Shown piece after piece: positions 15,798 through 46,698 of a DNA stretch of 64,000 bases. Origin of the DNA: Spirochaetota bacterium (lineage in GTDB: Bacteria > Spirochaetota > UBA12135 > COTS27); the NCBI GenBank assembly GCA_013426755.1, contig AP019861.1:2015271-2079270 (forward strand), read 5' to 3'. The notes under the pieces are model-generated. The model ran no database searches. It was not told where the DNA came from and saw only the letters and a list, made by a program, of their open reading frames with translations. Within the stretch, counting starts at the first letter, position 1. Each line of letters opens with the position of its first letter. The position numbers were made by a program, and so were the translations under genes.

Positions 15798-16750
15798 CAA
15801 AAAAACTAACTTCTCCAATAAAAAAAGAAAAAAGAATGTAGCACCCTAAATATACCGTCTTAAAACTAACTTCTCCAATAAAAAAGAAAAAAGATTGTAG
15901 CACCCTAAATATACCGTCCTAAAACTAACTTCTCCAATAAAAAAAGAAAAAAGAATGTAGCACCCTAAATATACCGTCCTAAAACTAACTTCTCCAATAA
16001 AAAAAGAAAAAAGATTGTAGCACCCTAAATGTACCGTCCTAAAACTAACTTCTCCAATAAAAAAAGAAAAAAGATTGTAGCACCCTAAATATACCGTCCT
16101 AAAACTAACTTCTCCAATAAAAAAGAAAAAAGAATGTAGCACCCTAAATATACCGTCCTAAAACTAACTTCTCCAATAAAAAAAGAAAAAAGAATGTAGC
16201 ACCCTAAATATACCGTCCTAAAACTAACTTCTCCAATAAAAAAAGAAAAAAAATGTAGCACCCTAAATGTACCGTCCTAAAACTAACTTCTCCAATAAAA
16301 AAAGAAAAAAAATGTAGCACCCTAAATGTACCGTCCTAAAACTAACTTCTTCAATAAAAAAAGAAAAAAAATGTAGCACCCTAAATGTACCGTCCTAAAA
16401 CTAACTTCTCCAATAAAAAAGAAAAAAGAATGTAGCACCCTAAATGTACCGTCCTAAAACTAACTTCTCCAATAAAAAAGAAAAAAGATTGTAGCACCCT
16501 AAATATACCGTCCTAAAACTAACTTCTCCAATAAAAAAAGAAAAAAGATTGTAGCATCCTAAATATACCATCCTAAAACTAACTTCTCCAATAAAAAAAG
16601 AAAAAAGATTGTAGCACCCTAAATATACCGTCCTAAAACTAACTTCTCCAATAAAAAAAGAAAAAAAATGTAGCACCCTAAATGTACCGTCCTAAAACTA
16701 ACTTCTCCAATAAAAAAAGAAAAAAAATGTAGCACCTTGAATGTACCGTC
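15798..16750. repeat. ~60 bp tandem array in the 23S-5S spacer, copy A
   Basis: About 16 copies of a 58-60 bp unit: ACTAACTTCTCCAATAAAAA, then A/G-rich sequence, TGTAGCACCCTAAATATACC and GTCCTAAA. Length varies mainly in the A tracts. On the minus strand it translates to a monotonous FFIGEVSFRTVYLGCY peptide, but no start, binding site or family supports a gene. Confidence 0.92.
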
Positions 16751-17012
16751 CTGAATGTATGGTCTTAAGCGAATTCTATATGAAAGAACCAATTCGCCCC
16801 ATATAAGAGAACAATCCATCTACCTGAAAAAACAGTCTATTATTAGAAGAGAGATGAATTATATTATTTTAAGAAAAAATGCCAACTCTCCTTTCTGAGA
16901 AAGGATCAATTATTAGAGAAAACAATTAGAAAAGTCGAGTTGATGGATAAGAGGAGGGTTAATTTTAGGCATCGGATTTTTTGTAATTTAATATTATTTT
17001 TTTATTTTTTAA

Positions 17013-17535: not shown

Positions 17536-17734
17536 TAAAATGAGCAATTTTTATATCATAAAACAAATAATTTTTAATAGCTGGGCGTTGACAATGCGTA
17601 AAAAAATTTAAAATCTATCTATTTTTAGAAAAATTCTTATATTTTCTTTGAATTCTCTGAGAAGACAATTTTTATACGATTTCTCAGCCTAAATCCCCTA
17701 TAAAAAAAATTTCTGTATATAAAAAACAAAAAAA

Positions 17735-18430
17735 CTAACTTCTCCAATAAAAAAAGAAAAAAGATTGTAGCACCCTAAATATACCGTCCTAAAACTAACT
17801 TCTCCAATAAAAAAGAAAAAAGATTGTAGCACCCTAAATATACCGTCCTAAAACTAACTTCTCCGATAAAAAAAGAAAAAAGATTGTAGCACCCTAAATA
17901 TACCGTCCTAAAACTAACTTCTCCAATAAAAAAAGAAAAAAGATTGTAGCCTCCTGAATATACCGTCCTAAAACTAACTTCTCCAATAAAAAAAGAAAAA
18001 AAATGTAGCACCCTAAATATACCGTCCTAAAACTAACTTCTCCAATAAAAAAGAAAAAAGATTGTAGCCTCCTGAATATACCGTCCTAAAACTAACTTCT
18101 CCAACAAAAAAAGAAAAAAGAATCTAGCCTCCTGAATATACCGTCCTAAAACTAACTTCTCCAATAAAAAAAGAAAAAAAATGTAGCACCCTAAATATAC
18201 CGTCCTAAAACTAACTTCTCCAACAAAAAAAGAAAAAAGAATCTAGCACCCTAAATACACCGTCCTAAAACTAACTTCTCCAACAAAAAAAGAAAAAAAA
18301 TGTAGCACCCTAAATACACCGTCCTAAAACTAACTTCTCCAACAAAAAAAGAAAAAAAATGTAGCACCCTAAATATACCGTCCTAAAACTAACTTCTCCA
18401 ATAAAAAAGAAAAAAATGTAGCACCTTGAA
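17735..18430. repeat. ~60 bp tandem array, copy B
   Basis: About 12 copies of the same unit family as at 15798-16750, with variants such as TAGCCTCCTGAATATACC. Preceded and followed by sequence that also matches copy A, so the array was duplicated as part of a larger block. Confidence 0.9.
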
Positions 18431-18544
18431 TGTACTGTCCTAGATGTACTGTCCTGAATGTATGGTCTTAAGCGAATTCTATATGAAAGAACCAATCCGC
18501 CCCATATAAGAGAACAATCCATCTACCTGAAAAAACAGTCCATT

Positions 18545-26206: not shown

Positions 26207-27052
26207 ATGTCAGCAAGGAAAATAAAAGAAGCCCCCACACCCCTACTGGGAGAACTAGAAGTATTTACCAACAACATACCCTCCCGCTACCCACACTCTC
26301 CACTACGCTACCCAGGCGGTAAGAGCCGTGCTATAAGAGAAATACTCCCCATGATACCAGAAGATACCACCGTGCTATGCTCTCCATTTCTCGGCGGCGC
26401 TTCAATAGAATTAGCATGCACCGTAAAAGGCATACGCGTAAAAGGCTATGATATATTTGAACCCCTTATAGACTTCTGGCAATGTCTCCTCGACACTCCC
26501 AACAAACTCGCAAATCAAGTAGAGAAGTATCACCCGCTTGACAGAAAACAATTTTACGCACTGCAAAAACACTACACCACGATCAAAGACACCCTAGTGA
26601 GAGCTGCCGTATTCTACGTCCTCAATAGGTCTTCGTTTTCCGGTGTAACCTTATCAGGCGGTATGTCAACAGGACACCCACGCTTTACACAGAGCTCTAT
26701 CGAGAGATTACGAGAATTTACAGCCCATAACTTCCTAGTCGCAAAAGCAGATTATAGACTGTCGATAGCTGAGAATCAAGACGCATTCCTCTACCTCGAC
26801 CCCCCGTATCGAAACGGACAAAAACTATACGGAATCAAAGGAGATGCACATCAAAGCTTCGACCATAAAACATTACGAGAATTGCTAAACCAACGCAATA
26901 GTTGGATATTATCCTATAACGACTGCCCAACCATCAGAAAATGGTACAAGGATTACCGCATTTTAAAAGCAAATTGGCAATATGGAATGGGCTCCCACAA
27001 AAAATCAAACGAGATAATAATAATATCACATGACTTAAGGATAGCCGCATGA
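26207..27052 (+). CDS. D12-class N6-adenine DNA methyltransferase (Dam family)
   Basis: The enzyme transfers methyl from SAM to N6 of adenine in duplex DNA. It has RYPGGKSRAI near residue 34 (motif X/I region), PFLGGASIELA near 62, and the catalytic DPPY near 198, the alpha-type order of the MethyltransfD12 family. The length (281) is normal. The stop overlaps the next ATG (GCATGAGCC), coupling it to the HaeIII-like nuclease. No Shine-Dalgarno motif precedes the start. The start could be a few codons downstream. Confidence 0.88.
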   Translation: MSARKIKEAPTPLLGELEVFTNNIPSRYPHSPLRYPGGKSRAIREILPMIPEDTTVLCSPFLGGASIELACTVKGIRVKGYDIFEPLIDFWQCLLDTPNKLANQVEKYHPLDRKQFYALQKHYTTIKDTLVRAAVFYVLNRSSFSGVTLSGGMSTGHPRFTQSSIERLREFTAHNFLVAKADYRLSIAENQDAFLYLDPPYRNGQKLYGIKGDAHQSFDHKTLRELLNQRNSWILSYNDCPTIRKWYKDYRILKANWQYGMGSHKKSNEIIIISHDLRIAA

Positions 27053-27933
27053 GCCAAGTACAGAGCGGCAAAAGTTTTGAGTACGCAATAGCCTACCAAT
27101 TACAAAAAATAACCCAAGCAACTCTAGTAGAAAACAAGCACCTAGTAACCGCCAGAAAATACTACGTAACCTACGACTCTGTAGAACAAAACAAGGCAAT
27201 GAACGCCGCCCAAAAAATAGTCGGCTTTCTTACAAGAGTAGACAAACGACTCAAACAAAAACCGTGTGTCCTACGACTCCAATCAGACCAAGCAGGTAAA
27301 TTAGGTGACGTGCGGGATATTGTTATTGAAACCCCCATGGGCGAGATAGGAATATCCGCAAAGAATAGGCATTTTGGTGTCAAGAACCCTCGACTTTCTA
27401 AGAATATAGATTTTGGACGCAAATGGATAGGACATCCCGTCTCACAAACCTATTGGGATACGGTAATGCCGATTTTTAGCAAAATGCAGAACAGACGTGA
27501 AAACGGACAATTATGGCGCAACATACACGATAAAGAAGACAAATTTTATGTCCCCCTACTGCATGCCTTTAACATAGAACTGCAACGCATATACGATAAC
27601 GATAAAGACAATACTCCTAAAAACTTGCTACATTATTTACTAGGACAACACGATTTTTACAAAACCGCAAAAGACAATGGAACCGCCATCGTACAATCAT
27701 TTAATATAAACGGCTCTCTGCTATGGGGTAAAAAACTACCCTTACCCACAATCATAGAAAACAGGAGAAACACAACCAAAACCACCACATTATATTCTTT
27801 TGACAAAGGATGGCAAATATCCTTTAGAATCCATAATGCTGAGAGTAAGGTAACCCCCTCTTTAAAGTTTGACATCCAGTTGACAGGACTTCCACACAGA
27901 TTATCTAGACACGAAATAAATTATTTATTTTAA
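27049..27933 (+). CDS. HaeIII-family Type II restriction endonuclease
   Basis: 294 residues. The segment GDVRDIVI near residue 85, then EIGISAKNRH near 103 and the NIDFGRKWIGHPVS stretch near 128, are the conserved core of the HaeIII restriction enzyme family (PF09556), with a D...E-x-(S)AK-type metal site. HaeIII itself cuts GGCC and pairs with a C5-cytosine methylase; here the adjacent, overlapping methylase is a D12 adenine enzyme. The recognition site must therefore differ, or another methylase protects it. Family assignment is from memory of the signature. Confidence 0.75.
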   Translation: MSQVQSGKSFEYAIAYQLQKITQATLVENKHLVTARKYYVTYDSVEQNKAMNAAQKIVGFLTRVDKRLKQKPCVLRLQSDQAGKLGDVRDIVIETPMGEIGISAKNRHFGVKNPRLSKNIDFGRKWIGHPVSQTYWDTVMPIFSKMQNRRENGQLWRNIHDKEDKFYVPLLHAFNIELQRIYDNDKDNTPKNLLHYLLGQHDFYKTAKDNGTAIVQSFNINGSLLWGKKLPLPTIIENRRNTTKTTTLYSFDKGWQISFRIHNAESKVTPSLKFDIQLTGLPHRLSRHEINYLF

Positions 27934-28440
27934 ATAGATAATTTTATTTGTATATGAAAAAATCGCACCACTCTCCCCACTAAGCAGAACCACCACAACT
28001 CAAAGCCATCACAGCCCACCCAGTCTCTCACCCAGCGGAGAGAACAGCACAAAAACCCCTCTTCCCCAGACTCGTTCACCAATGAGAAAGAGAGGCCATC
28101 ATTTCTAACCTACCACCACGCCCTGCCTAGTGCTCATTCCCACTGCTGCCAGACAATCATTATCCTAACACTACCCCCGTAGATTAAGATAACGCTCGAT
28201 AAACTCCTACCATCTTAAAATGAACCCCTGCCACAGTGATATAAATAATTATCCTTGTCTTGCAGAAAAAGATTTAATAGCCTAACCTCGTATATTGCTC
28301 CTTTCATATCGTAGGTCATATTTGTTTAATTGTGATTTTAATTGTAATTTTAATTGTGTTTTTATTTCTAATCGCGGTTTTTGAATGTGGGTTCAACCGT
28401 AGCTTTAAAGACCGCTTAAAAACACGCCTTTACATATCTC
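27934..28440. other. Gap between the restriction island and the exbB gene
   Basis: No gene or RNA recognised in ~500 bp. It is moderately C-rich at first and AT-rich at the end, with a short TTTTAATTGT repeat around 28330-28365. The genes on either side are convergent. Confidence 0.5.
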
Positions 28441-29298
28441 TTACGGACTACCAGGTCTTTGTATTTGATGTGTAAAGTATTCGAAGATATGCTGAATTCG
28501 TCCTTCTAACTCCTGCAACCGCCTTCTTGAAAAGACATACATAAACAGTAACGGAAACGATAAGATCAACCCCGCCTGCGTCGTCAATAACGCTTTCGAG
28601 ATGCCATCCGATAAGAAGATAGGATTGCTATTGCCAAAGATAGAGATCACTTCAAACGTGTCTATCATTCCAACCACCGTACCCAACAACCCAAGCAAAG
28701 GCGCCACCGTCGCTATCATTCGTAACGTCTTAAGCCTCCTGTAATGCTCACGTACAATCTGCTCATACTTATACACACACGCATACATCCGCGCCTCAAG
28801 TAACGAAGCAGCCCCCCCCCTACGGTCATTTTCTTTATAAGAATCCTCCCCTAAAGACTTCACCATTCCTAAGTCCCCCCTCAAACTATTTTCATCAACC
28901 CCTCCTCCAAGTACCTTCCCACCAGCAAGCACCCACGCAAGCTCCCCATAAAGTACCCGCTCGTAAGAACGAATAGCACCACCACGCAACTCAGACTCAA
29001 TCCCCACCAGCCTATCAAACCACCCCCGTACAACCCTCGTCAAAAAAAAACCTCCATTGATAGCCGCTTTCCTCTTCTTCTTAGGAGGTAAGATCATTTC
29101 TAAATCACTCGAGTAAGCACCCCCACGAACACCACCCTTTATTCCTTCTCTTCCTTCTAACTCGTACGCACGCGCATTCTTATAAAGGGATATCATAAAA
29201 TGACACACCTCCCACCAAGCCCAGTACCCCAGTATAAATAACGCTAAAAGCGTCCATCCCGTCTGAGCGATCGTTTCATAAAAAAATCGAATCATCAC
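28441..29298 (-). CDS. MotA/TolQ/ExbB proton channel protein (second ExbB of the TonB cluster)
   Basis: 285 residues: an N-terminal membrane helix (~12-30), a cytoplasmic region of ~130 residues that is Gly/Arg rich and partly low-complexity, then the channel core. The core has TVAPLLGLLGTVVGMIDTF near 205 and SKALLTTQAGLILSFPLL near 240, the ExbB/TolQ signatures. It should form the pentameric proton channel with ExbD dimers and energise TonB. It is the last gene of the cluster on the minus strand, separated from the large ExbB by ~1.5 kb of repeats, in a set resembling Vibrio ExbB2. Confidence 0.85.
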   Translation of the reverse strand: MMIRFFYETIAQTGWTLLALFILGYWAWWEVCHFMISLYKNARAYELEGREGIKGGVRGGAYSSDLEMILPPKKKRKAAINGGFFLTRVVRGWFDRLVGIESELRGGAIRSYERVLYGELAWVLAGGKVLGGGVDENSLRGDLGMVKSLGEDSYKENDRRGGAASLLEARMYACVYKYEQIVREHYRRLKTLRMIATVAPLLGLLGTVVGMIDTFEVISIFGNSNPIFLSDGISKALLTTQAGLILSFPLLFMYVFSRRRLQELEGRIQHIFEYFTHQIQRPGSP

Positions 29299-30285
29299 TG
29301 CTCTTAAACTATTGCTAATTATTGCTAATCTTACGCTAACCGTCTCTCAACACTCACAACAAGCACATAAACCACTTAACCACCCATCACGATTCAAACA
29401 AGCAACCCACCCACTACTTTTTAGCCCAAACAAGCCATTCGCCCGCCATCTCTAAGCTAAGCCCACCACATCAGCCCACCAGACAAACCCCGTCCATAAT
29501 CACAGGATCCAAGCCGCCCGTCTGCCATTCCTTAGCCCAGACAAGCAGCCCGCCTCCTGTCACAGTTTCAACGTCCCATTCACCTTCTCAATCTAAAAAA
29601 GCCCACACTTTCAGCGACCTTCTTTACCTTAGCCTACACTTTACCCTAGCCCAAAAACCCACACTTTCAGCGATACTTTTCCTTAGCCTCTAAAAAATCA
29701 CACTCTCAGCGTAACAACTCTAATACTCGTTCAACCAATAACCTACAATCATTACACTCACAGCATTCTTTAAGTATCACCTATCATTGACGCATCAACA
29801 GGACAAAACCACGCCAAACATCATCTACAATACGCATACCTTAAAAAGCCCAAGAATTTTACAATTTATAAATTATTACGTGCTCACAATATTATCGTCA
29901 TTCAATTTTATCATCACAACCATTTACAATGCAAATTTTGTTTCATTAATTAACTTAACATTTAATATATAAAACTCATACGCCCTAAACAGCTGCAATT
30001 CATACTAATGATATGATGATTTCACCACTTCTCACATAAAAAAAACTTTAAAATTCAGATTAAATTAAATTATTTCAATAAAATTTAAAGATTATAGGTA
30101 AAATCACTTCGTTTTACTCCATCTCACCCTTTATCATCGATTTATTCTATCAAAAATTTAATAAACATACAATAAAATTTCATAAAAAATTAAAAAAACT
30201 ACAATTTAGCGCCATTCTACGCTCAACATCCCTCTTGTTACCTCCTTTTAACCTTCAAGTATTCCTATATATTGAGTCAACATTG
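29299..30285. other. Repeat-poor AT-rich gap downstream of the large ExbB gene
   Basis: No credible gene; the plus-strand frame at 29787-29972 has no family or binding site. Short related blocks CCCACACTTTCAGCGA recur at ~29600-29690, and AGCCCAAACAAGCC-type stretches near 29420. The final part is A/T runs. Confidence 0.5.
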
Positions 30286-30550
30286 ATAATTATGGCTAAA
30301 TGTAGGTGCATATTGAGTCAACATGGGTAATTATACGTCAACGTGGCTAAATAGGAGTAATTATGGGTAATATAGGTAATTATGGGTGGATATTGAGTTA
30401 ATTAATATTGGTAATTATAAGTCAACGTGGCTAAATAGGAGTAATTATGGGTAATTATAGGTAATTATGGGTGGATATTGAGTTAATTAATATTAGTAAT
30501 TATACATCAACGTGGCTAAATAGAAGTAATTATGGGTAATTATAGGTGGA
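30286..30550. repeat. 84-85 bp tandem array
   Basis: TCAACGTGGCTAAATAG recurs at 30338, 30422 and 30507 with GGTAATTATGGGTGGATATT between. About three copies plus degenerate edges. Within it GTAATTATGG repeats at a shorter scale. Confidence 0.8.
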
Positions 30551-30659
30551 CAGATTCATTGGGATTCATTGAGATTCATTAAGGATCATTGGGATTTAAT
30601 GTCAGTCGTTTTATCCGGTTCATGCATTTTTATCACAGCCGATCCATCCATTCGATCAG

Positions 30660-30900
30660 AGGTATTCATTGTATTAACTTCGTGGGTTTTATTGGATTCG
30701 TTGGTTTTGTTAGATGTATTGATTTTATTAGCTTCATGGGTTTTGTTGGATTCGTTGGTTTTATTGGATGTATTGATTTTATTAGCTTCATGGGTTTTGT
30801 TGGATTCGTTGGTTTTATTGGACTCATTGGGATTCATTGGTTTGATTGGATTCGTTGGTTTGATTGGATTCGTTGGTTTGATTGGATGTGGGGGCTTTAT
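30660..30900. repeat. 54 bp and 18 bp arrays at the 3' end of the large ExbB gene
   Basis: CTTCATGGGTTTTGTTGG and its variants start at 30678, 30732 and 30786 (54 bp period), followed by an 18 bp unit TTTGATTGGATTCGTTGG up to ~30890. The 18 bp part encodes the NQTNES tail of the large ExbB; the 54 bp part lies beyond its stop, in another phase. Confidence 0.8.
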
Positions 30901-33025
30901 TCGTCCCATCAGATTCATCAACCCCATCAAGCGGAGCAAATATATCTAACGCCGCCAAACCTAACCGCTCCAGATAATCAATCAACCTCGTCTTATAATT
31001 CGTAAGGATATGATGCGTCAGGATAATCGGTACCGCTAACGATAACCCCGTTTGCGTCGTCACCAACGCAATTGATATTCCTCCAGCAAGCACCTTCGGA
31101 TTGTTATTCCCCAAAAACGTAATCACATCAAATAATGCTATCATTCCAGAAACCGTTCCCAATAACCCCAGTAGCGGAGCAATCACCCCCAATACCGCCA
31201 ATGTCGCCAATCGCTTTTCTAGATTAGGAATAATTCGTTGCATTGTTTCTTGTAACAATTGTTCACCCTTCTCACGATCTAAGCGTACCTTCCTGTACTT
31301 TAAAAAATGCGAAAATAACTCCCTAATAAGACCCCCCTGCTCCCTAAGCATCCGCTCCGCCTCAACCACACGATCAGCACGCAGTAACACAAGAACTTCA
31401 TTGCCGTAGCCTAAATCTCTCAGCCGATTGCGGCGAAAATACCTCACCCGCTCAACCCCTATAAATAACGCCGCCACACCAAGTAACACCAACGGATACA
31501 TCATAAATCCACCCGCCACAAAAAAATCTACCACCTTGCTAAATACACCTTTCGTATTCTCCTCAAGAAACGTACGCGACCTAGGCCCAGCCTGCGTCAC
31601 ATCCACCAACACCTCCACACCAGCTCGCCCACCAGCATCATTGTACGCACCCTTCACACTAGCCACCAACGCTGCCGCCATATCACCACTAAGCGCCTCC
31701 TTCCATTCATACCCAGGACCCACCAATCCTCCCACACGAAGTAAATACCCAGCCCACTCCTCAGCAGCATACGCACTATACACATACCCCACACGCAAAA
31801 CTTCCGCCTCAACACTCACCCCAGCTTGACTATGCAAAACATTCGTCCGATAAACCTCAATCTCTTCACCCCGCTCAACTAATACCGTCTCAAAATCTAA
31901 ATACGCATCCATAAAATCTCCCACACTCGCTCCCCCATCCCCAATATCACGTAACCGATTAATTGTCAACAAATTACGCTCCAACTCCGACGGATACCCC
32001 GCACGTAACTCTTCCGTCAACTTCTCAACACGCTCCCCCACCAATAACCGAAACGTCGCCAACGTCTCCACCTTCTCATCATACACCGCCTCCGTATCTT
32101 TAAGATTGCTCTTCACCAAAAAAACTTCCTCGTTAAGACTATTGCGCCGCTCAAATAACGTCTTCAACCCGTCATCCACCGCCACCACTCGCTCATTCAA
32201 CCGCTCACGCTCCCTAAGCATGCTCTGCTTCATCGTCCAATACTCCTGCTCCAAAGCCTCACGCGTACGCTCAAGCGTGTCAATCTCCGCTTCCAATTGC
32301 CGCTTCCCTTGTCCCATCAATTCATATCCCACCCCGCCACTCAACACAATTACCATCACCACACATCCCACCACTCGCACACTATTGTACGTGCAATCTA
32401 ATAATTTATTGCAGGTAGTCTTCATTAACGTATTGCAAGGAGACTTTACTAACGTATTGCAAGCAGGCTTTATTAAGGTATTGCAGGGAGACTTTATTAA
32501 GGTATTGCAAGGAGACTTTATTAAGCGATTGGAGAGAGACCTTATTAGATCATTGCACGTAGAAGTCAGTAGATTATTGTGCATAGAGGTTAGTAGGTTA
32601 TTGGATGCAAACTTCATTAGAGTATTGTAAATCATTTTTATTAAATTACTGGACGTGATTTTCATTGAGCTAGTGGAAGCAGACCTTATTAGATTATTGC
32701 GCGTAGAAGGTAGTAGGTTATTGGACGCAGACTTCATTAGAGTATTGTAAATCATTTTCATTAAATTACTGGACGTGATTTTCATTGAGCTAGTGGATGG
32801 AAATTTTATTAAACTATTGGATGTGAATTTCATTAGGCTACTGGACATGGGTTTCATTAAAGTATTGGACGGGAGATTTAATAATTTATTATAAGCGAAC
32901 TTTATTAAAGTATTATACGGGAATTTTATTAAACTATTGGAGGGGAATTTCATTGAATTACTAGACGTGGGGTTCATTAAGGTATTGGAGGGGAATTTCA
33001 TTAGGCTACTAGACGTGGGGTTCAT
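30824..33025 (-). CDS. Large TtpC-like MotA/TolQ/ExbB protein with octapeptide-repeat N-terminus
   Basis: The recognisable protein starts near residue 201: MKTTCNKLLD, a hydrophobic signal or anchor (VVGCVVMVIVLSG), a ~240-residue periplasmic coiled coil (TLERTREALEQEYW onward), a membrane helix near 500 (FMMYPLVLLGVAALFIGVE), and the ExbB core with VIAPLLGLLGTVSGMIALF and GGISIALVTTQTGLSLAVP. This matches TtpC, needed for TonB2 function in Vibrio. The frame stays open through ~25 upstream octapeptides (xxxNxLxK). ATG 32425 is the more natural start; 33025 is the upper limit. The C-terminus ends in NQTNES repeats, which continue beyond the stop in another frame. Confidence 0.82.
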   Translation of the reverse strand: MNPTSSSLMKFPSNTLMNPTSSNSMKFPSNSLIKFPYNTLIKFAYNKLLNLPSNTLMKPMSSSLMKFTSNSLIKFPSTSSMKITSSNLMKMIYNTLMKSASNNLLPSTRNNLIRSASTSSMKITSSNLIKMIYNTLMKFASNNLLTSMHNNLLTSTCNDLIRSLSNRLIKSPCNTLIKSPCNTLIKPACNTLVKSPCNTLMKTTCNKLLDCTYNSVRVVGCVVMVIVLSGGVGYELMGQGKRQLEAEIDTLERTREALEQEYWTMKQSMLRERERLNERVVAVDDGLKTLFERRNSLNEEVFLVKSNLKDTEAVYDEKVETLATFRLLVGERVEKLTEELRAGYPSELERNLLTINRLRDIGDGGASVGDFMDAYLDFETVLVERGEEIEVYRTNVLHSQAGVSVEAEVLRVGYVYSAYAAEEWAGYLLRVGGLVGPGYEWKEALSGDMAAALVASVKGAYNDAGGRAGVEVLVDVTQAGPRSRTFLEENTKGVFSKVVDFFVAGGFMMYPLVLLGVAALFIGVERVRYFRRNRLRDLGYGNEVLVLLRADRVVEAERMLREQGGLIRELFSHFLKYRKVRLDREKGEQLLQETMQRIIPNLEKRLATLAVLGVIAPLLGLLGTVSGMIALFDVITFLGNNNPKVLAGGISIALVTTQTGLSLAVPIILTHHILTNYKTRLIDYLERLGLAALDIFAPLDGVDESDGTNKAPTSNQTNESNQTNESNQTNESQ

Positions 33026-33070
33026 TAAAGTATTGGACGTGAATTTTATTGAGCTGTTGGACGGGAGGTT
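32426..33070. repeat. 24 bp tandem array at the 5' end of the large ExbB gene
   Basis: About 25 diverged copies of a 24 bp unit. The youngest lie nearest the conserved gene, for example TATTGCAAGGAGACTTTATT at 32450-32530. On the minus strand each unit encodes eight residues (SPCNTLIK, PACNTLVK, SPCNTLMK, MIYNTLMK). Because 24 is a multiple of three, the frame stays open whether or not it is translated. Confidence 0.88.
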
Positions 33071-33130
33071 TGGTAATTTTACTGCAGAATATTTTCATTG
33101 TTGTCATCATCACAGCCCACATACACACAC

Positions 33131-33358
33131 TCTCTATCTCTATCTATTTCTATCTATTTCTATCTATTTCTATCTATTTCTATCTATTTCTATCTATTTC
33201 TATCTATTTCTATCTATTTCTATCTATTTCTATCTATTTCTATCTATTTCTATCTAATTTCTATCTATTTCTATCTATTTCTATCTATTTCTATCTATTT
33301 CTATCTATTTCTATCTATTTCTATCTATTTCTATCTATTTCTATCTATTTCTATCTCT
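33131..33358. repeat. 10 bp microsatellite TCTATCTATT
   Basis: About 22 near-perfect copies, with one extra A near 33256, beginning right at the TGA stop of the DUF3450 gene. It separates that gene from the large ExbB reading frame. Confidence 0.95.
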
Positions 33359-34356
33359 CAATTGAAATCATTACGCAACTTAATTTCCCGATCCTCCAAT
33401 ATCACAGGCACCAAGTCCGCCGGAAGTCTGTTCTGAATCATCCCAATAATAGTCCGAATGTCATTCGCCTCGTTAAACCCCACCTCGCCAGAACTCAACA
33501 CATACCTCCCCTCCTCATCACGCTCATAACGATACACCCCAACACCCGTATCCACCGCAAAAAATACACGCCCCACACGTACCAAATCCACCGTCTGCTG
33601 CTCACCACCCACCTTCACAATAGCTCGCACAACTTGACTCTCATACGCCATTCCTTGCTCTCGCTTCAAAAAAACCACCAGCCGATTAAATATCTCATTG
33701 ACCGTCGCTCGCTTGCTGCGACTGTCATTGATAATTGCCGTCACCACAGCACTACGCTCCTCACGCTCAAACGGAATCCCACCCGCAATCTTATCCAACC
33801 ATTCCTCCGCACGACCCCTAAGCCGATCCAGTAACTCTGCCACACCCACCTCAACATTGCTTATCTCCACCTCCAGTAAACCTAACTTCCTCCGCGCCTC
33901 AATCACCTCAAGCTCCCTAGCACGTAACTCACGCCGCACACGCGCCACCTCCGCTTCCTTCTGCCCAAGTACTTTCTCCCGATCCGCCTTATAACGCTCA
34001 AACGCCTTCCCCTCCGCTTCAATATCCTTTTGAAATTGATCAATTTCTTGCTGCAATTGTGTCTTCTTCACAGCAAGCGCCGCAGCAGATTGCCCACGTA
34101 ACTCCACCATCACACCACCCCACATCATCATCACAACAACAACTTTCCAGCCCAACGCCATTGCTCCCATATCCTTTAACCACAGTACCCTATTTCTTAA
34201 CATTCTTATCATTCTTATCATTTCAATCATTCGTATTGTTTTAATTGTTCGCATCATTCCTGTTAGCATCGTTATTTCAGTCATTCGTATTGCTTCGATT
34301 GTTCGTATTATTCGTGTTATTTCAGTCATTCGTATTACTTCAATTGTTCGCATCAT
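33358..34356 (-). CDS. DUF3450 family periplasmic protein of the TonB cluster
   Basis: This protein has a signal peptide, a long coiled coil and a C-terminal domain with IPFEREERSAVV, VDLVRVGRVFFAVDTG and the final VILEDRE. This pattern fits DUF3450, whose gene accompanies TtpC/TonB2 in gammaproteobacteria. The likely start is ATG 34161 (MALGWKVVVVMMMWGG...), which has AAGGA 10 nt upstream. The frame continues upstream to 34356 through an array encoding RMIEMIRMIRM-like peptides. The signal ends in VELRGQSAA, shared with the TPR protein. The probable role is to support TtpC in the periplasm. Confidence 0.75.
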   Translation of the reverse strand: MMRTIEVIRMTEITRIIRTIEAIRMTEITMLTGMMRTIKTIRMIEMIRMIRMLRNRVLWLKDMGAMALGWKVVVVMMMWGGVMVELRGQSAAALAVKKTQLQQEIDQFQKDIEAEGKAFERYKADREKVLGQKEAEVARVRRELRARELEVIEARRKLGLLEVEISNVEVGVAELLDRLRGRAEEWLDKIAGGIPFEREERSAVVTAIINDSRSKRATVNEIFNRLVVFLKREQGMAYESQVVRAIVKVGGEQQTVDLVRVGRVFFAVDTGVGVYRYERDEEGRYVLSSGEVGFNEANDIRTIIGMIQNRLPADLVPVILEDREIKLRNDFN

Positions 34357-34890
34357 TCCTGTTATGTATTGCTTCGATTATTTGTATTATTCCTGTTGTG
34401 TATTGCTTCGATTATTTGTATTATTCGTGTTATTTCAGTCATTCGTATTGCTTCGATTGTTCGTATTATTTCTGTTATGCATTGCTTCAATTATTCGTAT
34501 TATTCTTGTTATATACTGTTTCGATTGTTTGTATTATTCCTGTTATTTCAGTCATTCGTATTGCTTCGATTGTTCGCATCATTCGTGTTAGCATCGTTAT
34601 TCCAGTCATTCGTATTATTTCGATTGTTCGTATCATTCCTGTTATGTATTGCTTCGATTATTTGTATTATTCGTGTTATTCCTATTATGTATTGCTTCGA
34701 TTGTTCGTATTATTTCTGTTATGCATTGCTTCAATTATTCGTATTATTCTTGTTATATACTGTTTCGATTGTTTGTATTATTCATGTTATTTCAATCATT
34801 CGTATTGTTTCGATTGTTCGTATCATTCGTGTTATTTCAATCATTCGTATTATTTCAATTGTTCGTATTATTCCTGTTAGCATCGTCATT
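34195..34890. repeat. Mosaic array upstream of the DUF3450 gene
   Basis: ~700 bp built from interchangeable modules such as ATTCGTATTGCTTCGATTG, TTCGTATTATTCCTGTTAT and TTATTTCAGTCATTCG. The array runs into the extended 5' frame of the DUF3450 gene. Open frames on both strands are artefacts of the repetition. Confidence 0.9.
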
Positions 34891-34904
34891 TCATCATTGA
34901 ATTT

Positions 34905-35240
34905 CAATGTAGCGGTCGTAAATTTAAGGGTAGAGTCATTGGTAGTCAATTTAGGGGTAGAGTTAGTAATCGTAAATTCATTAGCATAGGAATCGGTGGT
35001 CGTAGGTTTAGGGGTAGAATCATTGATAGTCAATTTGGGGGTAGAGTTAGTGATCGTAAATTCATTGGCATAGGAATCGGTAGTCGTAGGTTTTAGGGGT
35101 AGAATCATTGATAGCTAATTTAGGGGTAGAGTTAGTGATCGTAAATTCATTAGCATAGGAGTCAGTAGTCATAAATTTTAGGGGCAGAGTCATTGATAGT
35201 CAATTTAGGGGTAGAATCAGTGATGGTGAATTGATAGGTC
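34905..35240. repeat. ~85 bp tandem array 3' of the TPR gene
   Basis: GTAAATTCATT-A/G-GCATAGG starts at 34972, 35056 and 35141 with GGGGTAGAATCATTGATAGT between. About four copies, diverging toward the TPR stop codon. Confidence 0.88.
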
Positions 35241-35246
35241 GTGCGT

Positions 35247-36647
35247 TCATTGGGGCTCTGCTTCCGCTAAAATATAATTTCTTACCAACACCGCATATTC
35301 ATCGTTAAGATCATTCTCATCGTAGTAACTCAATAAATCCTTCATCAACGTAACATCACGCTCATTGTACGCACGCGCAAGCAAATTCTTAAATACCGAC
35401 TGCACCGCCTCACGACTACGCTTATCCCATTGCGCCCGCTCCGCCACATAAAACTCACCAAAAAACTCAAACGCCTCACGGTCTCGCCCCTCCTGTAATA
35501 ACAAATATTCCAAGTAACTCACCGCCTCGCTCTCACGCGGATACGCCACCACCAATCGCTTCAAATCATATATCGCAAGATTAATCAACCCCGCCTTCTC
35601 AAACGCCTCTACCATCTGCACAGCAACATAATACCGCTCCTCCGCCGATAATTCCTCCCCAGAAGACCCCCCAGCAGCAAAATCATCACCCTCACTCCCA
35701 GCAGCAAAATCACCCCCACTCCCCGCCAAAACAGCCGCAAACGCAGACGCCGCCGCTTCATAACGCCCCGCCGCCATATACATCTCCCCACGAATACGCC
35801 GTAACCTGCTCGCCTCACTAACCACCAATTCCGCTTCGTCCAAATACCCAATAGCACGATCAATATCCCCCACCGCCTCATAAACCTGCGCAATCAATAT
35901 ATAAGGCTCGTCACGATCACCTTCGCTCGCTAACGCATCATTGAAATACCGAAGCGCCACATAATAATCCCGCAACGCCACAGCAGCACTCCCCGCCAAA
36001 ACTAACGTATCATAATCTTTCCCATCAACTCCCAAATACCCCCTAAATATCCCAAGCGCTCGCACATAATCCCCAATAGCATAGTACAACTTCCCCAAAT
36101 TTAAATACGCATTCTTAAACAACGGCGCCGCCTTAATCACTTTACGGTAATAACTCACCGCCGCACTCAACCGATCTTGCCGAAAATACATATTCCCCAA
36201 ATTAAAATACACTATCGCCTTATTCCCCCCCTTCTCAAGCACACGCTCATAATAACGCTCCGCCTCCGCAAAATTGCCCGCCTCACTGAATTTATTCGCC
36301 TGCTCTAACAAAATCGCAGCACTCTGCCCCCTAAGTTCCTTGACTCCAATATTCACTCCAACCATCTTTAACCCCATTGTTAACCCCATTGAACCTATTG
36401 AACTCATTAAACCTATTGAATTCATTGAGCCTGTTGAATTGATTGAGCCTATTGAATTCATTAAACCTGTTGAATTGATTGAGCCTATTAAATTTATTGA
36501 GCCTATTGAACCTATCAGCCCCATTACCAAACTCCCATAACTTACCCACATAAGTATAACGCTCTTCCTCACCACTCCCAACATTGTTGGCACATTTCCC
36601 AACAACACTCCTCCCAAATTTATTCTCATGCTTAACTTTAACTCCAT
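35247..36647 (-). CDS. Secreted TPR-repeat protein of the TonB cluster
   Basis: 466 residues. After residue ~105 come about eight TPR helices pairs (for example FAEAERYYERVLEKGGNKAI, then YFNLGNMYF). They form a periplasmic protein-interaction scaffold. The same position in the Vibrio TonB2 locus also holds a TPR protein. The N-terminus is odd: RKSVILMWVSYGSLVMGLIG would be a signal helix, but ~50 residues of GSINSTGLMNSIGS repeats separate it from the KELRGQSAA junction where mature sequence begins. The conserved part ends AEAEPQ. The initiator is uncertain among ATG 36647 and the next internal ATG codons. Confidence 0.75.
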   Translation of the reverse strand: MELKLSMRINLGGVLLGNVPTMLGVVRKSVILMWVSYGSLVMGLIGSIGSINLIGSINSTGLMNSIGSINSTGSMNSIGLMSSIGSMGLTMGLKMVGVNIGVKELRGQSAAILLEQANKFSEAGNFAEAERYYERVLEKGGNKAIVYFNLGNMYFRQDRLSAAVSYYRKVIKAAPLFKNAYLNLGKLYYAIGDYVRALGIFRGYLGVDGKDYDTLVLAGSAAVALRDYYVALRYFNDALASEGDRDEPYILIAQVYEAVGDIDRAIGYLDEAELVVSEASRLRRIRGEMYMAAGRYEAAASAFAAVLAGSGGDFAAGSEGDDFAAGGSSGEELSAEERYYVAVQMVEAFEKAGLINLAIYDLKRLVVAYPRESEAVSYLEYLLLQEGRDREAFEFFGEFYVAERAQWDKRSREAVQSVFKNLLARAYNERDVTLMKDLLSYYDENDLNDEYAVLVRNYILAEAEPQ

Positions 36648-37470
36648 ATCCTAATTATTATGCATCGATCAATATTAATTAAAATTCAGTGCGTGAGTAT
36701 GCATAAATAGATTGAGTGATTGATTGATTGAGTGAGTGAAATTGAGTGATTGATTGAGTGATTGATTGAGTGAGTGAAATTGAGTGATTGATTGAGTGAG
36801 TGAAATTGCATGAAATTGATTGATTGAGTAAGCATGAATAGATTGAGTGATTGAGCAGACATTAATGAGTTGAGATTGATTGAGTGGAAATTGAGTGAGT
36901 GGAAATTGAGTGAAATTGATTGAGCGATGTATTAATACTTTTATATATGTACAGATTAATTAAAATATTGATTAAACAGAGCGATTGATGTCTTATTTTT
37001 TTATATATGCATTTATTAATTAATAAATTTATTAGCAAATTGGGGTGTGTGTCAATCAATTGAGTTGTCTATTTCTTTCGTTAAATCCTTCCTGTATTCA
37101 TAGATTAGCTGCTGGCGGAGGGTATAGGTGATTGATTGAGTGATTGAGCAATTAAGTGATTGAGTGATTGAACAATTAAGCGATTGAGATATGTATCAAT
37201 AATTTTATATATGTACAGATTAATTAAAAAGTTGATTAAGTAGAGCGATTGATGTCTTATTTTTTTATATATGCATTTATTAATTAATAAATTTATTAGT
37301 CAATTGGGGTGTGTGTCAATCAATTGAGTTGTCTATTTAATTGACTGAATGATATATTGATATTTTTGTATATGCATAGACTAATTAAAATATTCGTTTA
37401 TCGTGGGTGAAATGTTCGTTTATCGTTAGTAAAATATTCATGTAGCGTCATAAAATACTCACGAAAACAC
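36648..37470. repeat. GATTGAGTG repeats and a ~150 bp direct duplication between tonB and the TPR gene
   Basis: 36710-36925 and 37125-37190 are built of GATTGAGTGATTGAGTG units with AAATTGA variants. The block 36931-37077 (TATATATGTACAGATTAATT, GCATTTATTAATTAATAAAT, GGGGTGTGTGTCAATCAATT) recurs at 37187-37345 with a few changes. No gene. Confidence 0.85.
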
Positions 37471-38163
37471 TCACGAAAATATAAAGGGCACAATCACACG
37501 GATTCGTACCGGTATTCCTTTCACCATAGCAGGACGGTATTTCCACGTACGCACCGCCGCAGCAACCGCACGACCTAACTGATAACTAGGCGGGTCCTCC
37601 AAGATAACCTGCACTTCTCCAACACGCCCATCTGTATCAATAACAACCTGCACCTCAACACGCCCCTCACCCTCAGTCGCCGCAAAAGCAAACGGAACCT
37701 CAGGCTCACGCCCAGATATACGCACCGGGTCCACTTCCACATCCCCCTCATCGTATATCACACTCCCCACATCATCACTCGAAATAGCAGCACCACCCCC
37801 ATTCGCCCCCACAGCAAAATCTAAATCAAACCGATCATCACGTACCTCTTTCTTCGTCAACTTAGGCTTAACCGTCTTAATCTTCACCTTCTTAACAGGC
37901 TTCTCCTTCTCCTCAAAACTCACCCGCGTCACCTTAAGCTGCGCATTCGCATTCACATCCGCTTCTAAAAGCTGCTCCTTGCGAATATGCTTAATAAGCG
38001 GCATCACAAACAACACCCCTATATTAATCACCAAAGCAATTATTGACACCACAACCATTGTTCGCGTCACACCCCGCCACGAAGACCATTTCTGCCGAAC
38101 CCATCCAGTAGAACCGACTACCCATTTACGCACGTGATTTTTAATTCGCATTCCTAAATTCAT
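37471..38163 (-). CDS. tonB: TonB family energy transducer
   Basis: A 230-residue inner-membrane protein. A basic N-terminus is followed by a membrane helix at ~35-58 (TMVVVSIIALVINIGVLFVM), a Lys/Val-rich periplasmic linker (KPVKKVKIKTVKPKL), and the TonB C-terminal domain from ~165: VQVVIDTDGRVGEVQVI, then AVAAAVRTWKYRPAM and PVRIRVIVPF. It transmits proton-motive force from ExbB/ExbD to outer-membrane receptors. The N-terminal part before the helix is longer than in classical TonB. It lies 290 bp after exbD. Confidence 0.88.
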   Translation of the reverse strand: MNLGMRIKNHVRKWVVGSTGWVRQKWSSWRGVTRTMVVVSIIALVINIGVLFVMPLIKHIRKEQLLEADVNANAQLKVTRVSFEEKEKPVKKVKIKTVKPKLTKKEVRDDRFDLDFAVGANGGGAAISSDDVGSVIYDEGDVEVDPVRISGREPEVPFAFAATEGEGRVEVQVVIDTDGRVGEVQVILEDPPSYQLGRAVAAAVRTWKYRPAMVKGIPVRIRVIVPFIFS

Positions 38164-38453
38164 TGCTATTCACTCCTCTTTTAATATTTCTATATTTTTA
38201 TTTTTGATATATTGTTTTTTTTTAAAGAGATTTCGCCTATTTTTTTCATATTTTTTCTTTTTGTGTAAATTTCTGCATTGACTTTTTGGTTTTTTAATTT
38301 TTGTTCAGATTTGCGGTTATGAGCCCTTTAATTTTTTAAGTTTTTTTTCATTTTTTTGTTTTGAGTTTTTATTATTTGTTTTTATTTTTTAATTTATGGA
38401 TACTTCAAGCTTTTAATTTTTTAATATCTTAAATTTTTAAGCGTCGTATAAGA
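38164..38453. other. T-rich spacer between exbD and tonB
   Basis: 290 bp of T runs with TTTTTTAATTTTT-like repeats. No gene and no hairpin clearly followed by a T tract. Confidence 0.5.
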
Positions 38454-38858
38454 TCAATTTTTAAGGGCTGCGATAGAAGTTTGTACAATGCCAACACGCG
38501 TCGCCCGATCAATAACGTCAACAACTCGCTCTGTAATCGCTTTGCCATCCGCTAAAATCACCATTTGCACATTCGCATCACGCGCCCGCTCACGTTTTAA
38601 AATTGTCTCCAACGCAAACAAATCAACCTGCTTCTCAAAGACATGAATCGTTCCCTCACGCGTGATCGCTACCTTAATAATTTTGTCCTTGACCTCAGAC
38701 GCCGACGTCGCCCGCGGACGCTTCACTTCCACCCCCGTTTCTCGCGTAAACGTTGTCGTCACGATAAAAAAGATCAACAATATAAACACCATGTCCAGTA
38801 ATGGTGATAAATTAATCTCCGTACTCTCGTCAGAGCTCCTCCTAGAATACCGACTCAC
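38454..38858 (-). CDS. exbD: ExbD/TolR biopolymer transport protein
   Basis: 134 residues: short cytoplasmic N-terminus, one membrane helix (PLLDMVFILLIFFIVTTTF) containing the essential proton-carrying Asp, and a periplasmic domain with VILADGKAITERVV, typical of ExbD. It is the first gene of the cluster and partners the two ExbB-like proteins. The start at ATG 38858 places ~20 residues ahead of the helix, as expected. Confidence 0.92.
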   Translation of the reverse strand: MSRYSRRSSDESTEINLSPLLDMVFILLIFFIVTTTFTRETGVEVKRPRATSASEVKDKIIKVAITREGTIHVFEKQVDLFALETILKRERARDANVQMVILADGKAITERVVDVIDRATRVGIVQTSIAALKN

Positions 38859-39893
38859 TGCTTCTTAAACCCGTCTTTTCAATACTTTTGAAACTTAATC
38901 AGAGCTTCTTTATTTAATATTTCATTTAATATTTTTGTTTATTTTGATATTTTTGATTTTTTTTCAATTCGTTTCAAAAGACTTCAATATTTTTAATAAT
39001 TGTTTAATATTTATCAAATGTGCATAATTCGGACGTTTTTATTGTTTTGAGCACTATTTTTGTTCATTGAGCACTTGTTTTTGCCATTTTGGACATCATT
39101 TTTGTTATTTTGGACACCCTTTTTTATTTGCATTGCTTTCTATTATTGTAATATTTTTATTATTGCTTTTTATTGCCTTTATATCCCCTTTATATGCCCT
39201 TATCATGTCTTATTATGTTTTATTGTGTTTTATTGTGTTTTATTGTGTTTTATTGTGTTTTATTGTGTTTTATTGTGTCTTATTATGTCTTATTATGTCT
39301 TATTAGAGCTTTTGCCGTCATCATAATTCCATTGCTTTTATAAAATATAGGTAAATTGTAATACTTAAAGTATAATATGATTCGTATATTATTACTAGCC
39401 TCGTGTTTTATCGCTATATTACAGCCACTTTTAACTTATTTCCTTGTCTTTTGTTTTATACTCGTATTTTCTGTAATTCCGCTTTGCTTTAAAACTTGAT
39501 AGATGCTGTGATTTTAAAAAAACCTTGATTTGCATTGAATTTCATTCAGAATTACGCCTGCAGAATTACACCGTTTTATATTTAATATGAAGTACATAAT
39601 ATGAAGTATTCACCCTTTAATACAATTGATTTGTTGTTATTCTGGCTACGTAATGTTATGTTAATAATTGTATTTTTTTAGTTGACTTTTATTTGCACCT
39701 ATTTACTCCTATTTGCTCCTATTTACTCCTTTCTCTTTCTTTATAACACTTATAATATAAACGCCATTATTTACAATATTTACAGTATAACAACAACCCC
39801 ACACAACAACAACAAACCATCACCAGAGAAACTTAACTCCGCACAAATTTAGAGCATTCACAACATCACCGCAAATTTTCACGCCTTCGTTCA
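38859..39893. other. ~1 kb T-rich divergent region with a 10 bp repeat
   Basis: No gene. TATTGTGTTT repeats about seven times at 39218-39290, grading into TATTATGTCT. A copy of the dispersed motif TTTTTTTAGTTGACTTTTA is at 39674-39692. TATTTACTCC-like 10-11 bp repeats follow at 39700-39735. It should hold promoters for exbD (minus) and the exporter (plus), but I cannot fix them. Confidence 0.55.
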
Positions 39894-41645
39894 TTGATTC
39901 TAGCACGCCTCAAAAATTTTAAGGTCCTCACACCTTATTTCAAAAAATACATCCCGCATTACGTCATTGGATTCGCATTTCTCATCGTTCACAACTACGG
40001 CTACGTGAAATTTCCAGAGTACATGAAACTCACCCTAGAAGAAGTCTCAGCCACCAATAATCCACTCCTCGTCCGTAACCTGCTCCTCATCACAACAGCT
40101 TATCTCGCCATCACATGCCTATTTATGTACATCTCAAGGTGGACACTAATTGGCCTCAGCCGTAAGATAGAACACCATTTCAGACAAGACCTCTATCATA
40201 AACTCCTCCATCTCTCCACCGAGTTTTATAAAAACGAACAAGTCGGCGATCTCGTCAGCCGTATCACCAACGATCTAAACGACGTAAGAACCATGCTCGG
40301 ACCAGGAATCATGTACATCCCCAATTCACTAAGCCGCATTGCCTTCTTCATTCCCGTCATGATAACGCTAAGCCCCATTCTCATGGGGGCTATTATGGGA
40401 TTGATTGTCGTTTTAGTTGTTCTCATTCTCTTCATCATGCCCATGTTACGCCCACTTTACAAGAAAATACAGACCATCCGCGCCTCCATCAACAACGAAG
40501 CCTGGCAATTTATCTTCGGTATCTCCACAATCAAACTCAACACCATAGAAACCATCAAAAGTAACCACTTCAACAAAATAAGCCATCGCTACCTCAAAGC
40601 CAACGTCCGCTTAGCTGTCTTTGAAGGCTTCACATGGCCTTTATTTTTATTTATTTTTAGTATGAGTGCTATTATCATTTTAGCTATTGGCGGCCGTGAA
40701 GTGATTGCCGGTAGGCTCAATTTAGCGGAATTATTGCAATTTAATATCATGCTAAGCATCCTCACCTTCTCCGTCTTCTCGCTAGGCTGGGTCATGTCGC
40801 TCATCACACAAGGACTCAGCGCCTTAGAACGCATCAATAACTTCTTCCTCCAACCCTCAGCAGACACAAAAAAAATAGCCACCCTCCCGACCTCAGGTAA
40901 ACCTAAGTCCATCACCCTAAAAAATCTCTCCCTAAAAGACCCCCACCAACGTATCATCTTAGACAACATTTCCCTCTCCATCAAACCAGGTGAGATCATT
41001 GCTCTCACCGGTAAAACAGGAAGTGGAAAAACTTCGCTCATTGAACTCCTCCTAAGTATCATTCCCCCCTCATCAGGGCAAATCCTCATAGACCAAACCG
41101 ATCTCGCAACCATCAAACCAGAAATCCTTTATCAAATCATTACAGCCGTCCCCCAAGAGACATTCCTATTTTCAACAACCATCAAAAATAACATTGCTTT
41201 CGAAGAAGAACACAACCCCAACCTCCCACGCGTCATCACCGCCGCAAAACTTTCCGCCATTCACAAAGAAATAACCGCCTTCCCCAACCAATACAACCAA
41301 ATCTTAGGCGAACGCGGTATCACCCTCTCAGGCGGCCAAAAACAACGCACCGCCATCAGCCGCTCACTATACAAAAAAGCAAGTATCCTCATCCTAGATG
41401 ACGCCCTTTCTAGCGTAGACAGCCAGACTGAGAAGAATATCATTGACAATCTTAAAAAATTCAAATCCCTAAAAACAATCATTCTCAGCTCCCACAAAAT
41501 ATCCCTCCTCCGCATCGCAGACCGTATCCTCTACTTAGACCAAGGACGCCTCTCAGAACAAGGCTCGCACTCCGAACTCATGCTCCTAAACCGCCAATAC
41601 GCCAAAATGGCACGCCTCCAAGAACTTAAAGCCGCTATCGAGTAA
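39894..41645 (+). CDS. ABC exporter half-transporter A (MdlA/LmrC-like)
   Basis: 583 residues: six membrane helices (~20-310) and a C-terminal ATPase. Walker A is GKTGSGKTS, the signature is LSGGQKQR, and Walker B is ILILDDALSSVD. The residue after Walker B is Asp in place of the catalytic Glu, so its own ATP site is probably degenerate, as in heterodimeric exporters. A single in-frame TTG at 39894 is the only plausible start; no ATG lies upstream. The partner gene follows 85 bp downstream. The substrate could be a lipid, drug or peptide. Confidence 0.88.
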   Translation: MILARLKNFKVLTPYFKKYIPHYVIGFAFLIVHNYGYVKFPEYMKLTLEEVSATNNPLLVRNLLLITTAYLAITCLFMYISRWTLIGLSRKIEHHFRQDLYHKLLHLSTEFYKNEQVGDLVSRITNDLNDVRTMLGPGIMYIPNSLSRIAFFIPVMITLSPILMGAIMGLIVVLVVLILFIMPMLRPLYKKIQTIRASINNEAWQFIFGISTIKLNTIETIKSNHFNKISHRYLKANVRLAVFEGFTWPLFLFIFSMSAIIILAIGGREVIAGRLNLAELLQFNIMLSILTFSVFSLGWVMSLITQGLSALERINNFFLQPSADTKKIATLPTSGKPKSITLKNLSLKDPHQRIILDNISLSIKPGEIIALTGKTGSGKTSLIELLLSIIPPSSGQILIDQTDLATIKPEILYQIITAVPQETFLFSTTIKNNIAFEEEHNPNLPRVITAAKLSAIHKEITAFPNQYNQILGERGITLSGGQKQRTAISRSLYKKASILILDDALSSVDSQTEKNIIDNLKKFKSLKTIILSSHKISLLRIADRILYLDQGRLSEQGSHSELMLLNRQYAKMARLQELKAAIE

Positions 41646-44640: not shown

Positions 44641-46698
44641 TTTATCTGCCCTCTCTATAAATTAAAATCGGTGACTCGCCCCGCCACCTGCTCCTTTCAA
44701 TCTTATCATGATTTCACTCCACCATTGCCGCCGCTAAATATTATTATTGAAATTTATCAACTACTCTTACCCATTGTTCTTATCAGGATACTTGTTATTT
44801 AACCTTAAATCATTGTTTTCTTTAATATTTATTATTCTCTATTAATGCATTAATTTTAGTTGACTTTTTTTTTGACATTGAAAACTCTATCTCTTATTGC
44901 AGGTTCTCTCTCATTTTGCAGAGATTTATTGCAGGTTCTCTCTCATTTTGCAGAGATTTATTGCAGGTTCTCTCTCATTGCAGAGGTGTTTATCCTGTTC
45001 TTATTGAGATTTTGACTCGCCCGCTTTCATTGACATTGTGAAACTCGCTCGCTTTCATTGACATTGTGAAACGCTCGCTTTTATTGAGATTGTTACTAGA
45101 TACTCTTACCAGCTGTTTTTATCAGGATACTTGTTATTTAACCTTAAATCATTGTTTTCTTTAATGTTTATTATTCTCTATTAATGCATTAATTTTAGTT
45201 GACTTTTTTTTTGACATTGAATATTCTATCTCTTATTGCAGATTCTCTCTCATTTTGCAGAAGTTTTTATCCTGTTCTTATTGAGATTTTAATTCACCCG
45301 TTTTCATTGAGATTGTGAAACTCGCCTGCTTTCATTGAGATTTTGACTCGTCTGTTTTCATTGAGATTGTGAAACTCGCTCGCTTTCATTGACATTGTTA
45401 CCAGATACTCTTACCAGCTGTTTTTATCAGGATACTTGTTATTTAACCTTAAATTATCGTTTTCTTTAATGTTTATTATTCTCTATTAATGCATTAATTT
45501 TAGTTGACTTTTTTTTTGACATTGAAAACTCTATCTCTTATTGCAGGTTCTCTCTCATTTTGCAGAAGTTTTTATCCTGTTCTTATTGAGATTTTGACTC
45601 GTCTGCTTTCATTGAGACTCTGGGACTCGGCTGCTTTCATTGAGATTGTTACTAGATACTCTCACCAACTGTTTTTATCAGAGTACTTGTTATTTAACCT
45701 TAAATTATCGTTTTCTTTAATGTTTATTATTCTCTATTAATGCATTAATTTTAGTTGACTTTTTTTTGACATTGAAAACTCTATCTCTTATTGCAGGTTC
45801 TCTTCCATTTCAGAGGTGTTTATCCTGTTCTTATTGAGATTTTGACTCGACTGCTTTCATTGAGATTCTGGAACTCGCACGCTTTCATTGAGATTGTAAA
45901 ATTCGGCTGCTTTCATTGAGACTGTGGAATTCGTCTACTTTCATTGAGATTGTGAAATTCGGCTGCTTTCATTGAGATTGTGAAACTTGCTCGCTTTCAT
46001 TGAGATTTTAATTCACCCGTTTTCATTGAGATTGTGACTCACCCGCTTTCATTGAGACTCTGGGACTCGGCTGCTTTTATTGAGACTCTGGAACTCGCCC
46101 GCTTTCATTGAGATTCTGAGACTCGGCTGTTTTCATTGAGATTGTTACTAGATACTCTTACCAACTGTTTTTATCAGAGTACTTGTTATTTAACCTTAAA
46201 TTATCGTTTTCTTTAATGTTTATTACTCTCTATTAATGCATTAATTTTAGTTGACTTTTTTTTTGACATTGAAAACTCTATCTCTTATTGCAGGTTCTCT
46301 TCCATTTCAGAGGTGTTTATCCTGTTCTTATTGAGATTTTAATTCACCCGCTTTCATTGAGATTTTAAAATTCGACTGCTTTCATTGAGATTGTGAAACT
46401 CGCTCGCTTTCATTGAGATTGTGGAACTCGCCTGCTTTCATTGAGATTGTAAAATTCACCCGCTTTCATTGAGACTCTGGAACTCGCCCGCTTTTATTGA
46501 GACTCTGGAACTCGCCTGTTTTCATTGAGATTTTGACTCGGCTGCTTTTATTGGGATTTTGACTCGTCTGTTTTCATTGAGATTGTAAAATTCGCCCACT
46601 TTCATTGAGACTCTGGAACTCGCCCACTTTCATTGAGATTTTAAAATTCGGCTGCTTTTGTAACAACACAGCAAGAACCCTCAACACCTATCCCTAGG
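44641..46698. repeat. ~2 kb composite repeat field
   Basis: Five copies of a ~180 bp core, with GTTATTTAACCTTAAAT at ~44789, 45135, 45437, 45687 and 46184, each followed by TATTAATGCATTAATTTTAG, TTGACTTTTTTTTTGACATT and TCTCTTATTGCAGGTTC. Between cores lie variable numbers of a ~25 bp unit (TTTCATTGAGATTGTGAAAC with TCGCC), many copies in the last intervals. No gene is present. Confidence 0.9.

Follow-up and report, generated by a model that had tools for sequence, protein, structure and literature searches.

A 24-bp minisatellite open in the frame of a TtpC-type ExbB gene in a repeat-rich spirochaete genome is probably untranslated

Within the 64-kb stretch of spirochaete genome that we analysed (the window), a 24-bp tandem array of 29 units (32378..33073, minus strand) runs without a stop codon into ttpC, the gene for a large ExbB protein. 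We consider it probable that this array is a neutral, non-coding minisatellite which has grown over the start of ttpC and the n-region of its signal peptide, and that translation starts downstream of most of the units, at ATG 32425 or GTG 32380. It would then be one of hundreds of minisatellites that appear to fill intergenic spaces in this spirochaete lineage, and would be transcribed as an untranslated leader or as intercistronic DNA. An earlier note on this DNA had proposed that the array encodes an expandable amphipathic extension of the protein, with an upstream untranslated sequence as the alternative, and it is this alternative that fits better than the protein reading.

Judged from its sequence, the array-bearing gene is a TtpC-type large ExbB in a TonB2-like operon, and the earlier note was correct in identifying both the large ExbB and its signal sequence. 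The most likely coding sequence (30824..32425, minus strand, from ATG 32425; alternatively from GTG 32380) aligns with relatives and carries a MotA/TolQ/ExbB domain (Pfam PF01618, E = 1.3e-24), which lies at the C-terminal end, at residues 579-686 of the 733-aa open reading frame (ORF) that includes the array (30824-33025, minus strand; first ATG at 33025). The six-gene cluster around the array comprises, all on the minus strand, exbD (38454..38858; PF02472, 5.2e-27), tonB (37471..38163; PF03544, 3e-14), a TtpD-like gene for a TPR protein (35247..36647; domain search), a TtpB-like DUF3450 gene (33358..34356; PF11932, 6.5e-13), ttpC itself and a small exbB (28441..29298; PF01618, 1e-21). The same six kinds of gene stand side by side in the Vibrio TonB2 system (TtpB2/DUF3450, TtpC2, ExbB2, ExbD2, TonB2 and TtpD2/TPR), where the channel domain of the large ExbB is likewise preceded by a long helical stretch (PMC6957404). 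The spirochaete cluster differs in gene order, in its Spirochaetota host and in the minisatellites that lie in its intergenic spaces, and the likeness is one of gene content. Elsewhere in the window, two overlapping genes lie at 26207-27933, the first resembling an adenine-specific DNA methylase by eye and the second possibly a restriction enzyme.

Comparison with relatives would place the start of the protein inside the last units of the array. A contig search with a single protein found no relative, whereas an alignment query did, and among 36 full-length TtpC homologues from several phyla, one of them from the same family, none carried a repeat N-terminal extension; in a few the N-terminus was longer but non-repetitive, an effect solely of choosing the earliest possible start codon. 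These homologues are mostly 460-560 aa long and have a signal peptide followed by a long part before the channel domain; ttpC aligns with them, and TtpC started at 32425 measures 533 aa. The signal peptide of the relatives aligns from M201 (ATG 32425) of the 733-aa ORF onward, which matches ATG 32425 or GTG 32380, so that the protein most likely begins at one of these two codons, with 32425 the more consistent with the relatives. The putative signal peptide region (MKTTCNKLLDCTYNSVRVVGCVVMVIVLSGGVGYELMGQ; 32309..32425, minus strand), recognised from the sequence, the alignment and a modelled helix at residues 210-229, has the last two array units as its n-region. Tandem repeats are absent around the junction of DUF3450 and ttpC in the neighbouring genomes G001 (same family), G003 and G002, where the two genes abut or overlap (the gap is 5 bp in G001, and the overlap in G003 is 4 bp). 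In the window, the likely ttpC start lies about 0.93 kb from the DUF3450 stop, and most of the DNA in between is repeat. Phages yielded only distant ExbB matches. No Shine-Dalgarno motif was found at 33025, 33001, 32617 or 32425, nor by eye at 32380, whereas tonB has AGAGGAG, and the lack of the motif at 32425 and 32380 counts against the reading that we prefer.

Read from 33073 to 32378, the 29 consecutive units keep an exact 24-bp register with zero indels (TRF gives a span of 32407-33066 and 27.5 units). The array is thus real, and larger than the roughly 25 copies first claimed for it. The consensus unit, ATAAAATTCACGTCCAATACTTTA, encodes IKFTSNTL, in agreement with the xxxNxLxK pattern described before, and the ORF contains peptides such as SPCNTLIK and FPSNTLMNPTSSNSMK. 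The continuity with the large ExbB frame was likewise borne out: the ttpC frame has zero stops and 16 ATGs over the 29 units, against 48 and 21 stops and 1 and 0 ATGs in the remaining two minus-strand frames, and the nearest in-frame stop upstream of the ORF is a TGA at 33097-33095. Neighbouring units are highly divergent, differing at about 8 of 24 bases, and recent growth is seen in three zones, not one. The copies nearest the gene are indeed very alike, as had been noticed (1-4 base differences across 32521-32449), but there is also a 120-bp (5-unit) duplication in mid-array, 93% identical, and, at the distal end, an alternation at 48 bp. With its head-to-tail units and nested duplications, of the kind that define minisatellites, the array is genuinely a tandem repeat. 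Such DNA is easily misassembled, which would favour an artefact in the array or its copy number, but we regard this as very improbable, given that the genome is a single contig, that the units are diverged and distinguishable, and that comparable arrays, with many unrelated units, are found all over the sampled genome. The leader has no extra RNA stability over shuffled sequences (z = +1.09) and no hairpin signal, Rfam gave zero matches at gathering scores across 28000-40000, and promoter and terminator scans gave no more than shuffles did (27 vs 34.2 and 5 vs 6.3).

The simplest origin, and from the sequence the most likely one, is repeated tandem duplication of the first codons of ttpC itself, followed by later segmental duplications, because the unit takes in a start-like segment (TTA-ATG-AAR) and the n-region of the signal peptide is made up of the last two units. 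TTA-ATG-AAR stands at the unit boundary in about half of the units, and most of the others have TTA-ATA-AAR. Growth from a stop-free start segment with a period that is a multiple of 3 would automatically leave the array open in the frame of the gene and furnish it with in-frame ATGs. The same pattern could suggest a ladder of in-frame starts, in which ribosomes in the wrong frame terminate and restart in the ttpC frame, replacing the translational coupling of DUF3450 and ttpC in relatives. This would agree with the distribution of ATGs by frame, with the out-of-frame stops (TAATGA type) that overlap 14 of the 16 in-frame ATGs, and with the touching or overlapping genes of the relatives. We nevertheless think a ladder improbable, since a single unit with a period divisible by 3 is enough to produce the pattern, which is not consistent in the other arrays of the operon and is echoed only mildly in the other arrays at gene 5' ends (84 ATGs in the gene frame, 59 and 79 in the others). 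A ladder would work only if ribosomes reached it. Also against it is the 10-bp array (TCTATTTCTA, 22 copies; 33133..33356, no strand assigned) that follows the DUF3450 stop and precedes the 24-bp array: it contains no ATG, has stops in each of the three minus frames and has a period not divisible by 3.

The other main contender is that the array is translated, giving TtpC a cytoplasmic tail rich in Ser, Asn, Thr and Lys, of up to 200 residues, before the signal or anchor sequence, with a length that follows the copy number; we consider this unlikely, yet not negligibly so. In its favour, 29 diverged units show neither a stop nor a frameshifting indel in the correct one of three frames, and the absence of indels counts against the untranslated reading. 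When 112 changes were placed at random, a mean of 5.2 stops arose and zero stops in 7% of runs, so that without constraint such openness has a chance of about 0.07. One open frame is less remarkable because, in the first sample, some frame was also fully open in 9 of the 50 non-ORF arrays that reached 200 bp; indels of at most 1% were found in 7 of 42 diverged non-ORF arrays. Codon changes, counted along a minimum spanning tree of the units, revealed no amino-acid constraint between units, with 18 synonymous and 48 non-synonymous changes (0.273, where the same substitution spectrum predicts 0.257). In the array frame, codon usage is unlike that of genes (score -0.107, below 99.5% of gene windows and within the range of non-coding arrays), a weak test given that conserved parts of the operon genes score low too and the ttpC core itself reaches only -0.024. 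Nor is there a genome-wide preference for the gene frame outside the ttpC array: 72 other arrays at gene 5' ends have 348 stops in the gene frame against 348 and 381 in the other two. The 5'-adjacent arrays that are open over at least 90 bp are mildly more often so in the gene frame (14 vs 6 and 7; one-sided p = 0.036, ttpC array included), which favours translation and speaks against our preferred account, but is a hint at most.

A low-confidence predicted fold is a further point for the untranslated reading. In an AlphaFold model (20 sequences), the extension has a pLDDT of 25-60, the signal helix occupies residues 210-229 and the confident part begins near residue 250. Cleavable signal peptides preceded by 200 residues are unusual, which is a further point against translation of the array. 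As for the amphipathic character of the repeat, the mean helical moment of the encoded extension does exceed that of shuffles (0.275 vs 0.184 +/- 0.020), although modestly, and there is no fixed amphipathic stripe because, by arithmetic, each 8-residue unit on a helix is turned about 80 degrees from the one before. Together with the homologues that have no repeat extension, the conserved start at 32425 or 32380, the missing constraint at codon level and the missing gene-frame preference at other arrays, this argues against the expandable amphipathic extension of the earlier note. Initiation at an upstream array ATG, with partial translation of the array, may still take place.

Array-coded protein very probably does exist in the sampled genome, which is a point for the translated reading: arrays very probably leak into proteins at gene edges, because arrays encode the TtpC C-terminal tail and a portion of the TPR protein. 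The 3' end of ttpC meets an 18/54-bp array (30662..30887, no strand assigned), the first 64 bp of which (30824-30887, minus strand) encode the SNQTNES tail and the stop codon; these last 64 bp of ttpC encode SNQTNESNQTNES. The C-terminus SNQTNESNQTNESNQTNESQ and its stop codon, at 30824-30887, are encoded by a second array. An 18-bp array in the TPR gene (36387-36511) is in frame between the hydrophobic N-terminus and the TPR domain and yields SIGSINxxGSIN-like repeats. The 5' end of the DUF3450 ORF also runs into an array, and a degenerate array upstream of that gene (34287..34879, no strand assigned) is full of stops in the minus frames.

The abundance of such arrays makes an untranslated array that is open by coincidence plausible. 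A genome sample of 784 kb was made up of the window and 36 other 20-kb stretches. Tandem arrays account for 8.2% of its DNA, 26% of the non-ORF DNA and 2.2% of the ORF DNA, compared with 0.3-0.5% in the loci of other genomes and 1.7% in the same-family genome (51 kb). Over the first 404 kb, periods divisible by 3 were at the chance level outside ORFs (33 of 115) and nearly universal inside them (36 of 38), as expected, because arrays within ORFs must survive in the reading frame. Arrays often begin less than 50 bp from stop codons, and 8 of 428 genes, ttpC among them, end inside one. A rough count takes the chance of a multiple-of-3 period as about 0.29, that of a stop-free 8-codon unit in the gene frame as about 0.68 and that of staying stop-free as about 0.07, the product being about 1.4% for each array. 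At gene starts, 34 arrays of 120 bp or longer were counted in the sample, corresponding to about 115 in the genome, so that one or two open cases are expected genome-wide. On this rough reckoning coincidence would be enough to explain the open frame, the 24-bp array having been selected for study because it is open.

The minisatellite units are many and unrelated, from 9 to more than 200 bp, at a density far above that of relatives, in a single-contig genome that is rated only 75.7% complete. Loss of mismatch repair was considered as the cause of the arrays and rejected, as both mutS and mutL are present. Elsewhere in the window, separate arrays about 1 kb apart (15802-16752 and 17731-18442) have a common 59-bp unit (16 and 12 copies), and a 1.66-kb region (45003-46658) has 28-bp units that are nested within higher-order repeats of 305 and 497 bp. 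In another sampled stretch, a large ORF (L053:3647-7300, minus strand) holds 1.35 kb of in-frame 96-bp repeats and several other arrays in one frame.

The array resembles bacterial minisatellites and VNTR loci in its units of tens of bp, its nested higher-order duplications and its mostly intergenic position at gene edges. It differs from them in the unusual density of such repeats here and in being open in the frame of the downstream gene over all its units. Rickettsia palindromic elements are dispersed palindromic inserts that form in-frame intragenic repeats, and are thus also repeat DNA able to extend into coding frames, whereas the 24-bp array is tandem, at the 5' edge of one gene and without a hairpin signal. 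A literature search on tandem-repeat-rich spirochaete symbiont genomes found nothing relevant.

It seems doubtful to us that arrays growing out of a gene's first codons give TtpC a translated N-terminal tail of variable length, or an in-frame start ladder. If it were true, array growth would tune the TtpC N-terminus or the rate of initiation, and, if the array is translated, tandem growth at a start codon would be supplying an energy-transducing membrane motor with a tail that evolves fast. If it is untranslated, as we think probable, it is a clear example of how growing minisatellites produce long, spurious N-terminal extensions, which gene callers would annotate as protein, in a spirochaete genome with about a quarter of its non-ORF DNA as tandem repeat despite mutS and mutL.
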